Below are positions 2,501 to 8,009 of a stretch of DNA of 40,096 nt, in pieces. Positions within the stretch are counted from its first letter, which is position 1. Each line of letters begins with the position of its first letter. The stretch covers positions 1-40,096 of the forward strand of contig NZ_CAJYVU010000113.1 in assembly GCF_913778135.1 (NCBI RefSeq). The letters are read 5' to 3'. Under the pieces are notes generated by a model. It ran no database searches, was not told the DNA's origin, and was given only the letters and a program-made list of their open reading frames with translations. Origin of the DNA: an uncultured Sphingomonas sp. (GTDB lineage Bacteria > Pseudomonadota > Alphaproteobacteria > Sphingomonadales > Sphingomonadaceae). Made by a program: the position numbers and the translations under genes.

Positions 2501-2707
2501 GGCGCGCCTGCCATATCGGCCGAGCCCTCCCGAGCTTAGCCGCAGAGGTGGGCCCGCGCGCGCGGTCACAGGCCGACCGGCTATGCCGGGTGGCCTGCGG
2601 AATGAAAGACCTTCGGGGAATACGCGGGGCGCAGTCGCCTGTGCTGCGCGGCTAACCACCCGGTACCAGATGGCAGGCCAGGGCGCCTCCCTCGCGTATC
2701 CCCGAAG
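2501..2707 (+). ncRNA. Candidate structured RNA with a pseudoknot, in the prophage between lysis genes and the methylase
   Basis: The 347 bases between 2486 and 2834 have no convincing ORF but strong complementarity. P1: 2501-2514 pairs with 2670-2687 (9 bp, 4-base bulge, 5 bp). Inside it 2516-2521 pairs with 2571-2576; 2584-2593 pairs with 2656-2665 (10 bp including one G-U); 2629-2634 pairs with 2644-2649. A long helix, 2611-2626 with 2693-2707 (15 bp with one bulged A, extendable by about 3 pairs that would compete with the 2629-2634 hairpin), crosses P1 and the 2584 helix and would form a pseudoknot. I do not recognise it as a known class. The strand is assumed from the neighbouring genes. 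Bases 2708-2833 show only a weak 5-bp hairpin (2716-2736) and the leader of the methylase. Confidence 0.45.
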
Positions 2708-2833: not shown

Positions 2834-3628
2834 ATGCACCCCGTCATCGCTGCCAACCCGCCCGCCGCCTACCTTGGCGGCAAGCGCAACCTCGCCAAGC
2901 GCCTGTGCGCGCTGATCGAGACGATCCCGCACCGCGTCTACATAGAGCCGTTCGTCGGCATGGGCGGCGTGTTCCTGCGCCGCGGCCGCGCGCCGGCGGC
3001 CGAGATCATCAACGACCTGTCGGGCGACGTCGCCAACCTGTTCCGCGTCGTGCGCCGGCACTACCAGCCGTTCGTCGACGAATTCTCCTACCTGCTCGCC
3101 AGCCGCGATGAATTCGAGCGGCAGAAGCGCGTCGACGCGACCACGCTGACCGACATCGAGCGCGCCGTCCGCTTCCTCTACCTGCAGCGGCTCGCCTTCG
3201 GCGGTCACGTCACAAAGCGCGTGTTCGGCGTTCGCAAGGATCAGTCGTCACGCATCAACGCCGCCACGATCCGCGCCGATCTGAGGAAGCTGTCGCAGCG
3301 GCTGCAGGCGGTGACGATCGAGCAGCTGCCGTACCAGGACGTGATCCGCCGCTACGATAGCGCCGGCGCGCTGTTCTACCTCGACCCGCCCTATGACGAG
3401 ACCTGCGGCTACGGCACCGGCTTCGGCCGCGACGATTACGTCGCGATGGCCGAGCAGCTCGCCGGCATCGCCGGCGCCTTCGTCATGTCGATCAACGACA
3501 CGCCTTTCATCCGCGATACGTTCGCCGCCTTCGAGATCCAGGAAGTCGAGACCACCTGGACGCTGTCGACCAGGACGCGCGATCGCGCCAGGAAGGTGAC
3601 CGAGCTGATCATCCGCAATCGCGCCTAA
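2834..3628 (+). CDS. DNA adenine N6-methyltransferase, D12 class (prophage orphan methylase)
   Basis: The 264-residue protein is a type II alpha (D12/Dam-like) DNA adenine methyltransferase, transferring methyl from S-adenosylmethionine to adenine in a short recognition site. Residues 11-17 (A-A-Y-L-G-G-K) are the N-terminal motif. E-P-F-V-G-M-G-G-V-F at 38-47 is the SAM-binding motif I. D-P-P-Y at 184-187 is catalytic motif IV. Length is normal for the family. No restriction nuclease is adjacent, so it is an orphan enzyme, probably protecting phage DNA or timing phage processes. It follows the structured non-coding stretch and has only a weak ribosome-binding site before ATG 2834. The target sequence cannot be read from the protein. 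Confidence 0.9.
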   Translation: MHPVIAANPPAAYLGGKRNLAKRLCALIETIPHRVYIEPFVGMGGVFLRRGRAPAAEIINDLSGDVANLFRVVRRHYQPFVDEFSYLLASRDEFERQKRVDATTLTDIERAVRFLYLQRLAFGGHVTKRVFGVRKDQSSRINAATIRADLRKLSQRLQAVTIEQLPYQDVIRRYDSAGALFYLDPPYDETCGYGTGFGRDDYVAMAEQLAGIAGAFVMSINDTPFIRDTFAAFEIQEVETTWTLSTRTRDRARKVTELIIRNRA

Positions 3629-6743: not shown

Positions 6744-8009
6744 ATGTTGACGAACGCCGCGGTGAAAGCCGCGCGGCCGCGCGCGGCTGGCTACAAACTC
6801 GCCGACGCCGGCGGCCTGCACCTCTACATTGCGCCGAACGGCCGACGCTCTTTCCGAATGCGATTTCGCTGGCAGGGCAAGGAGCAGCTTCTGACGTTCG
6901 GCCAGTGGCCGGAGATCTCGCTGGACGTTGCGCGCCAGCGCGCCGACCAGGCGCGCGCGCAGCTCGCCCGCGGCGATGATCCCCGCGAGTGCGTCGGCGA
7001 CGAAGCGACGAAAGTTCGTGCTTTCGAGTATGTATCGCGCGACTGGTTCGAACAGCGCAGAGCGCGCTGGTCGGCGACGCACGGGGTCGACGTAATGGCG
7101 AGCCTGGAGCGCGACATCTTCCCGGCGATCGGTGCCATGCCGATCGAGGCAATTACGACGCCGGTCGTGCTGAGCGCGCTGCGCACGCTCGAGCAGCGTG
7201 GCCGCCTCGAGACCGCGCGGCGCGTCCGGCAGCGGATCTCCGGCGTGTTCAAGCACGCGATCGCGCAGGGCTGGGCCGAGCGCGATCCCGCGGCCGTCAT
7301 CACCGACGCGCTGCTGCCCCCGCCGCCGGTGCGGCCTCAGCCAGCGCTGACCGAGCTCGACGAAGTGCGCGCCCTGGTCGCCGCGGTCGACCAGCTGGAC
7401 GCAGCGCCGGCGACGAAGAACGCGGCCGCGTTCCTGATGCTGACCGCGGTGCGCCTGGCGGCGGTGCGTGGCGCGCGCTGGCGCGAGATCGAGGATCTGG
7501 ACGGCGCGGCGCCACTGTGGCGCGTGCCGGCCGAACGCATGAAGCTGAAGGTCGCGGAGAAGGCCGAGACCCGCAACGATCACCTGGTGCCGCTCAGCTC
7601 GGCCGCGGTGGACGTGCTGCGCGCAGCGAATATGCATCGTGGTGATGCAAATATGCATGATCGCGGCGACGAGCTGATCTTCGGCGACGTCGCGGAGGGC
7701 GCGATCGGCGCGCTCTACAAGCGCGCGGGGTTCGGCGGCCGACACGTGCCGCACGGCTGTCGCGCCAGTTTCTCGACCATCCTCAACGAGCGAATGCCGG
7801 CCGAGCGGGCAGCGATCGATCGCGCGCTCGGTCACGCGCACGCCGGCGACAAGTTGGAGGCCAGCACCATCAATCGCAAGGTCGAGGGCGCGTACAATCG
7901 CGCGGCCTACCTGGGCCCGCGTCGTCGCCTGTTCGACGCTTGGGCGGCGCTGCTCGCCGGTGCGCCGATCGCGGCCGACGTCGACGAGGGCTCGGCCGAG
8001 GCCGCCTGA
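6744..8009 (+). CDS. Tyrosine recombinase, P4-type integrase
   Basis: The 421-residue protein has the N-terminal arm-type DNA-binding domain of P4-family integrases (DUF4102; L-A-D-A-G-G-L-H-L-Y-I and T-F-G-Q-W-P-E-I-S-L). A core-binding helical domain follows (about 90-190), then a C-terminal catalytic domain. Visible catalytic residues are Arg237 in T-A-V-R, Lys about 267-269, His337 and Arg340 in H-G-C-R, His364 in A-L-G-H-A, and Tyr384 in A-Y-N-R. All are present, so it looks intact. It would cut and join attachment sites to insert or excise the element. A tRNA-Thr 1.3 kb downstream is the likely target. A seven-codon tandem duplication (A-N-M-H) interrupts the catalytic domain near residues 296-309. 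Confidence 0.93.
   Translation: MLTNAAVKAARPRAAGYKLADAGGLHLYIAPNGRRSFRMRFRWQGKEQLLTFGQWPEISLDVARQRADQARAQLARGDDPRECVGDEATKVRAFEYVSRDWFEQRRARWSATHGVDVMASLERDIFPAIGAMPIEAITTPVVLSALRTLEQRGRLETARRVRQRISGVFKHAIAQGWAERDPAAVITDALLPPPPVRPQPALTELDEVRALVAAVDQLDAAPATKNAAAFLMLTAVRLAAVRGARWREIEDLDGAAPLWRVPAERMKLKVAEKAETRNDHLVPLSSAAVDVLRAANMHRGDANMHDRGDELIFGDVAEGAIGALYKRAGFGGRHVPHGCRASFSTILNERMPAERAAIDRALGHAHAGDKLEASTINRKVEGAYNRAAYLGPRRRLFDAWAALLAGAPIAADVDEGSAEAA

Follow-up and report, generated by a model that had tools for sequence, protein, structure and literature searches.

The antisense RNA C4 of phages P1 and P7 (RF01695; c4-a1b1, RF03163; c4-2, RF02944) is organized in the order a1-b1-core-a2(-b2)-gene. 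Its core consists of a closing stem and two hairpins, with a1 in the loop of an upstream hairpin, b' in the loop of the second core hairpin and a' before the 3' strand of the closing stem. In the phage P1 record the annotated order is a1, b1, c4, a2, b2, icd; the placing of a' and b' was read from the annotated targets and the sequence. Processing of C4 by RNase P has been described, and C4-like RNAs of Acinetobacter are processed from longer transcripts (PMC5320573). Rfam's C4 and the c4-a1b1 motif are both listed in PMC2864571. Another phage antisense RNA, sar of phage P22, blocks translation of an antirepressor (PMC12197685); an a1/b1 competitor layout goes unmentioned in the parts of that source consulted, and the likeness of sar to the RNA studied here is one of description.

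A second RNA relevant to this study is sRNA-Xcc1 (RF02221), which has been described as a virulence-linked trans-acting sRNA (PMC2996969, PMC12444791). RACE mapped its length to 88 nt, and on Northern blots its band ran near 100 nt (PMC2996969); its activation by type III secretion regulators has been described (PMC12444791). It is also found in integron cassettes, and the cassettes of Xanthomonas have it upstream of symE (PMC12444791). In PMC12189769, sRNA-Xcc1 and the c4 antisense RNA are listed as separate RNAs.

A structured RNA ahead of a prophage methylase gene

We analyzed a window of 40,096 nucleotides, which is the whole of contig NZ_CAJYVU010000113.1 from an uncultured Sphingomonas sp. 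and which appears to start inside a prophage. On its 5' side the RNA is flanked by a gene encoding a GH108 lysozyme-type domain and by a small ORF that has no Pfam family. The RNA is followed by dam (2834-3628, + strand), an orphan N6-adenine DNA methylase gene (PF02086, MethyltransfD12, E 1.9e-27) that is presumed to be the regulated gene. Between dam and the integrase (6744-8009), the segment 3989-6406 carries an MntP-type manganese efflux gene (PF02659) together with a glyoxalase-like and a sugar-transferase-like ORF, both recognized by eye; several relatives have an integrase-like gene that begins only about 1.2-1.9 kb past the RNA. Just 5' of the RNA we noted by eye a weak promoter-like block, CTCGAC-17 nt-CCATAT (2488-2516, +). 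A loose -35/-10 pattern of our own making for this block occurred in 31 of 61 loci, compared with 2% of mononucleotide shuffles, and a consensus sigma-70 scan detected no promoter.

To assemble homologues, positions 2480-2790 were searched in 295 genomes of the genus. A total of 135 genomes matched at E<=0.01, mostly through short G+C-rich pieces, and the 58 places whose E-value was about 2e-6 or lower were retrieved along with their flanks, the weaker ones looking like short G+C matches. A plasmid search returned eight records, two of them real (the Novosphingobium plasmids L033 and L034) and six short matches, and blastn of phage records (INPHARED) gave no match. The resulting set comprised 61 loci, namely the 58 fetched places, the two plasmids and the window, so that 59 came from genomes of one genus. 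A model search of the family found matches at E<=0.01 in 23 of 397 genomes and 20 of 96 sampled genera, with filters that lose some weak matches. All 61 loci and 23 viral contigs had one architecture in common, in which a1 (in a hairpin loop) and b1 (in the linker) pair with a' and b'. Both a' and b' lie inside a core of about 80 nt (2585-2664, +), and their pairing with a1 and b1 crosses the closing stem of this core.

We then evaluated the fold by covariation. The alignment contained 58 of the 61 loci, with L082, L086 and L091 omitted as degenerate or carrying an inserted loop, and the tested structure comprised 35 pairs in hairpin 1, a1-a', the closing stem and the two core hairpins. Overall 96.0% of cells were paired and 27 of the 35 pairs had changed on both sides, which supplies the compensatory changes that an earlier note on this DNA had proposed to look for among homologues. 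In 500 shuffles none of the five measures was ever reached, and a control in which the partners were slid by 1-3 columns brought pairing down to 31-46%. The closing stem (2585-2593/2656-2664, +) was paired in 96.0% of cells with double changes in five of nine pairs, and the second core hairpin (2630-2634/2644-2648, +) in 98-100% with double changes in four of five. Two helices of the earlier note, 2584-2593/2656-2665 and 2629-2634/2644-2649, correspond to these two elements and were thus confirmed. The first core hairpin (2595-2599/2623-2627, with inner pairs 2610-2611/2616-2617, +) also covaried. Hairpin 1 (2524-2553, paired as 2524-2530/2547-2553, +), which holds a1 in its loop, showed double changes in all seven pairs and was paired in 90.6% of cells in the 58 sequences, the window itself having a T-T mismatch at one of the seven.

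The single-sequence folding energy was modest (z -2.71 on the + strand, and even lower, -3.80, on the - strand), and the case for an RNA therefore rests on covariation. A stop-free + frame extending from hairpin 1 through the whole core was present in 21 of the 61 loci; there is thus no conserved ORF, in line with the earlier note, which had seen no convincing one. From this comparative evidence we conclude that the conserved and interlocked structured RNA is real.

The two crossing helices were examined separately. The segment a1 (TTAGCCG, 2536-2542, +) pairs with a' (CGGCTAA, 2649-2655, +), which occupies the stretch separating the second hairpin from the closing stem; 97.0% of cells were paired and five of seven pairs showed double changes. 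A separate set of 32 sequences, from 23 viral contigs and 9 genomes outside the genus, was aligned with a model lacking a1-a'; there the helix was paired in 97.7% of cells, again with double changes in five of seven pairs. Four of the five measures were reached by none of 500 shuffles in this set, and the fifth, the number of pair types, was unexceptional. Because a1-a' crosses both hairpin 1 and the closing stem, the a1-a' pseudoknot is real.

For the second helix, b1 (CACAGGC, 2567-2573, +) is complementary across loci to b' (GCCTGTG, 2637-2643, +) in the loop of the second core hairpin. With one mismatch allowed, at least 7 bp were found in 59 of the 61 loci; without mismatches the median was 8 bp and the minimum 5 (59 loci). 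The mean b1-b' score was 21.5 for native partners versus 12.9 (sd 3.4) when partners were swapped among 59 loci, a test that left out L082 and L086, and in 32 of these 59 loci b1 preferred its own b' loop over all different loops. A convincing helix was missing in L082 and L092 among the 61 loci scored, and in a few rows, such as L064, the best-scoring pairing was non-homologous. The b' loop region itself was highly variable, with 48 distinct versions among 59 loci.

These results change the picture of the pseudoknot. The earlier note was right in proposing a pseudoknotted RNA, and the pseudoknots are formed by a1-a' and b1-b', helices that it did not list. Its 15-bp helix, 2611-2626/2693-2707 (CTTCGGGGAATACGCG / CGCGTATCCCCGAAG), is present in the window. 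It competes with the first core hairpin and is therefore to be read as an alternative pairing, one specific to a single subclade, rather than as part of a simultaneous pseudoknot. On comparison of relatives, the 3' segment (2693-2707, +) was complementary to the core in that subclade only: among 18 other subclade loci chosen by eye, an uninterrupted 10-15 bp was retained in 17 and 6 bp in L077, with matched changes in L043, L048, L050, L051 and L057. In other dam loci, different downstream segments pair with different parts of the core. Across 46 loci, complementarity of the segments just 3' of the core scored 33.6 for native versus 29.7 (sd 5.6) for swapped partners, so that complementarity just 3' of the core is suggestive by subclade only. 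Two further helices of the note were not supported. The helix 2501-2514/2670-2687 is a 9-bp run in the window that shrinks to 5-8 bp in 18 relatives and overlaps the promoter-like block, and 2516-2521/2571-2576 is complementary in the window, with a 3' arm that overlaps b1, whose covarying partner lies elsewhere.

Relation to sRNA-Xcc1 and to phage C4

Searching Rfam at gathering thresholds returned only tRNAs in the window. Below threshold, RF02221 matched 2584-2672 over positions 1-87 of 87 with 34 bits, short of the gathering score of 53; on 141 nt the E-value was 8.9e-5, a significant match to the full-length fold. The earlier note's statement that the RNA matches no class it could name is superseded by this distant sub-threshold match and by the layout of the phage P1 C4. 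Riboswitch models of any Rfam class gave no match at E<=10 in 2480-2850, and RF01695 had no match in the window at gathering and none at E<=10 in the same interval. In 101 genomes of the genus, RF02221 detected 20 places at E<=0.01, 15 of them loci of the 61-locus set, and none of the 101 genomes had a match above the cut-off; at E<=1 the model also matched one of 14 control genomes. Reciprocally, a model built from the window-type RNA (R1) found 15 of 30 sRNA-Xcc1 loci at E<=0.01 and 24 of 30 at E<=1, these E-values being rough. The reported RACE length of 88 nt (PMC2996969) agrees with a core closed by a long stem.

The 30 sRNA-Xcc1 loci were those returned from a phylum sample, in which RF02221 matched 62 of 398 genomes at E<=0.01, 39 of them above the cut-off. 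On the 5' side, these loci usually carry a hairpin with a complement of a' in its loop, followed by a complement of b', and on the 3' side many have second copies (a2/b2) near the ribosome site. When partners were permuted 10,000 times among the 30 loci, the native mean was reached 0 times for a1, 0 for b1, 4 for a2 and 0 for b2. The own partner beat all 29 others in 8 loci for a1, 4 for b1, 0 for a2 and 7 for b2. The matches thus appear locus-specific on average and are less striking individually.

We also classified the genes downstream of sRNA-Xcc1. A mechanical choice of ORFs yielded 28, two of the 30 loci giving none. Ten of the 28 scored above the Pfam cut-off as SymE (2), Bro-N (4), KilA-N (1), P22_AR_N (1) or Rha (2). 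The rest comprised one Bro-N below the cut-off, one Rap1a immunity protein and 16 ORFs without a Pfam family. Accordingly, 11 of the 12 neighbors with a Pfam family were antirepressor-type or SymE, one of them below the cut-off. A short ORF of about 30 codons separates the core from the Bro-N gene in L107, L116 and L118, an arrangement reminiscent of icd ahead of ant in P1. In L112 a sub-threshold match to c4-2 (RF02944) was seen at 2890-2958 on the - strand, about 1.3 kb from the sRNA-Xcc1 copy, and the two kinds may stand side by side there. Three genomes (G573, G685 and G386) each contained 5-9 sRNA-Xcc1 matches, and such multiple copies are possibly parallel C4-type switches of differing specificity.

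The window-type RNA resembles sRNA-Xcc1 in its core, in the internal-loop signature and in the a1/b1/a2/b2 layout. It differs in its score, in its downstream gene (dam or small secreted proteins) and in its junction between a1/b1 and the core: a terminator-like T-run precedes the core in 23 of the 30 sRNA-Xcc1 loci, whereas such a run between hairpin 1 and the core is present in P1 and in none of the 61 window-type loci. The sequence of P1 has the topology of the window RNA as well. The window-type RNA shares with C4 the three-stem core, in which the loop of the last hairpin holds b' and a' precedes the 3' strand of the closing stem, and the upstream a1 and b1 complementary to a' and b'. Candidate downstream targets were a2 in dam leaders and b2, the latter recognized by eye in non-dam loci of sphingomonads and through the permutation test in sRNA-Xcc1 loci. 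Unlike C4, the window RNA has a longer first core hairpin with an AAUA..GGRAAUA internal loop, its candidate regulated gene is dam, and b2 was not seen in dam leaders. The RF02221 model does not reach the c4 of P1. The RCC motif of RNase P substrates, searched as a rough pattern after the stem, occurred in 16 of 61 sphingomonad and 16 of 30 sRNA-Xcc1 loci; it was too poorly conserved to be of use. Because both sRNA-Xcc1 and the window RNA have the c4-icd-ant layout of P1, and given the antirepressor-type and SymE neighbors, both are best read, by their architecture, as C4-type antisense RNAs.

Candidate targets in dam leaders and other downstream genes

In 43 of the 61 loci, dam begins within about 250 nt of the core (41 leaders examined; L048 and L050 by their ORFs). 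The hexamer TAGCCG or a listed variant was found before dam in all 41 dam-adjacent leaders examined, with patterns that were written after the sequences had been seen. In the window this proposed a' target, a2 (TAGCCG, 2798-2803, +), lies about 15 nt before a weak Shine-Dalgarno-like GAAGAG. Between loci, a1, a' and a2 change together (L041, L047, L049 and L081, and the viral contigs L201 and L198, the latter added by eye), a2 pairing through G-U in L041 and L049. Among 32 viral contigs with a dam homologue, 23 had the RNA, and a2 was present in all 23, again by patterns set after inspection of the sequences; in the nine without the RNA, TAGCCG was absent within 100 nt before dam, and TGACCG was present in two. 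Since b2 was not seen in dam leaders, a2 pairing would need to act indirectly on translation.

In five loci (L200, L207, L209, L071 and L073), the RNA and dam are 1.3-2.1 kb apart and a2 still lies just before dam; in L207 and L209 the intervening ORFs are on the opposite strand. That a2 stays beside dam despite this separation argues more for recognition of the target in trans than for a folded cis-leader. The region separating the RNA from dam is also an insertion spot for cargo (L200 1699-3000, L207 885-3000, L209 872-3000; also L071 and L073). This cargo includes a cytosine-methylase-like ORF in L200 (by eye), a DUF5677 protein in L209, and in L207 an HTH-like ORF together with a reverse transcriptase (PF00078) that looks retron-like by eye.

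Forty other dam homologues of the genus had no R1 match in the roughly 0.6-1 kb fetched upstream, which indicates that dam does not need the RNA. An a2-like hexamer was present in 6 of 39 RNA-less dam homologues. We had predicted that such a hexamer without an adjacent RNA would point to an RNA farther away, and this prediction failed: none was found within about 11 kb upstream of the six, in a search that did detect L071 and L073. A search with R1 over 18 whole genomes (6 with and 12 without the hexamer) gave no match, an empty answer that is uninformative for this search. Two dam leaders look by eye like natural deletions: in L136, one of the six with the hexamer, apparently only the 3' end of the RNA remains, and in L135 the promoter-like block is joined almost directly to a2 and dam.

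In many other sphingomonad loci the RNA lies directly before genes for small proteins that mostly bear signal peptides, as judged by eye. None of six such proteins tested behind non-dam RNAs had a Pfam family above the cut-off. In these non-dam loci b' can pair with the Shine-Dalgarno region (b2; by eye). Just 3' of the RNA in L079, L080, L083, L084 and L182 we noticed by eye small secreted proteins with a 'DP.SA.(Y)RF ... GG..GF' pattern, and those tested (L079, L083 and L084) matched no Pfam family. Near some non-dam RNAs there are IS1595-type transposase genes (annotated in L033; by eye in L084 and L091) or tRNAs (L083, L087 and L090).

Proposed mechanism, alternatives and meaning

Based on these data, the window locus probably encodes a C4-type antisense RNA, for which we propose antisense repression of dam modulated by a1 and b1. 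Comparison between loci establishes the fold of the core, the pairing of a1 with a' and of b1 with b', the match to a2 ahead of dam, and the layout shared with sRNA-Xcc1 loci and P1; release of the core, repression of dam and immunity we infer by analogy. The transcript would start just 5' of hairpin 1 and run through a1, b1 and the core, which contains a' and b', into the dam leader, where a2 lies. The core would be freed as a small RNA, as RNase P does in P1, and a' would pair with a2 and lower translation of dam, while a1 and b1 would compete for a' and b' and so set the amount of free antisense RNA. Where b2 lies at the Shine-Dalgarno region (small-secreted-protein loci, by eye; sRNA-Xcc1 loci, tested), b' may pair with it too, as annotated for P1. 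When a related phage enters, the core RNA could also act on it in trans. The lysogen, and possibly a superinfecting relative, would thus make little methylase. The earlier note's suggestion of a phage regulatory RNA or methylase switch pointed in the right direction, the RNA being conserved, pseudoknotted and placed before dam; control of the methylase itself belongs to the part drawn from analogy.

A cis-acting riboswitch or attenuator, in which the leader responds to a metabolite or protein by opening or masking the ribosome site of dam or of the small-secreted-protein genes, would account for the strongly conserved pseudoknotted core, its position before genes and the alternative pairings 3' of it. 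We consider this unlikely, given that a2 stays with dam across inserted genes, some of them on the opposite strand, that a terminator-like T-run stands before the core in most sRNA-Xcc1 loci, and that the b' loop region varies freely, unlike a ligand pocket. The layout moreover equals that of a known antisense system, P1, and the riboswitch idea was abandoned once the a1/b1-core-a2/b2 layout emerged in the sRNA-Xcc1 loci. The usual description of sRNA-Xcc1, a host-adapted sRNA acting in trans on chromosomal mRNAs, draws on the RACE and Northern sizes (PMC2996969), on the activation by type III secretion regulators (PMC12444791) and on the Rfam type 'sRNA'. It fits poorly with a matching local target that adjoins the RNAs and with the many RNAs in prophages, in viral contigs or next to integrases, and we regard it as quite improbable here.

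Even less probable is a DNA-level element, such as a recombination or integration site whose repeats merely resemble RNA pairing. The frequent position near the integrase end of prophages, the genes inserted beside the RNA and the occurrence of sRNA-Xcc1 in integron cassettes (PMC12444791) would suit such an element; the free use of G-U pairs, the pairs kept across pseudoknots, the orientation of the RNA toward the gene and the closeness of a2 and b2 to translation starts all speak against it. Finally, a chance structure in G+C-rich DNA would agree with the merely moderately low single-sequence energy, and is hardly conceivable in view of the 0 of 500 shuffles and the slid controls in two sequence sets.

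A C4-type antisense RNA is itself already known; what appears to be new here is a C4-type layout whose downstream gene encodes a viral DNA methylase and not an antirepressor. The shared architecture suggests that one kind of RNA switch is common to many mobile elements. More tentatively, and with somewhat more doubt than confidence, we propose that the C4-type module is wider than antirepressor control, that sRNA-Xcc1 is one of its branches, and that sphingomonad phages moved the module onto a DNA adenine methylase, giving RNA-based, sequence-specific control in trans of phage DNA methylation, possibly including that of superinfecting relatives. If this is true, sRNA-Xcc1 would be linked with the C4 antisense immunity RNAs of phages, and its predicted direct target would be the neighboring gene, namely SymE or an antirepressor at loci that have one there. 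The reach of C4-type control would then include a viral DNA methylase in addition to antirepressors. Given the joint changes of a1, a' and a2 from locus to locus, cross-regulation between phages would be predictable from sequence and its specificity testable.
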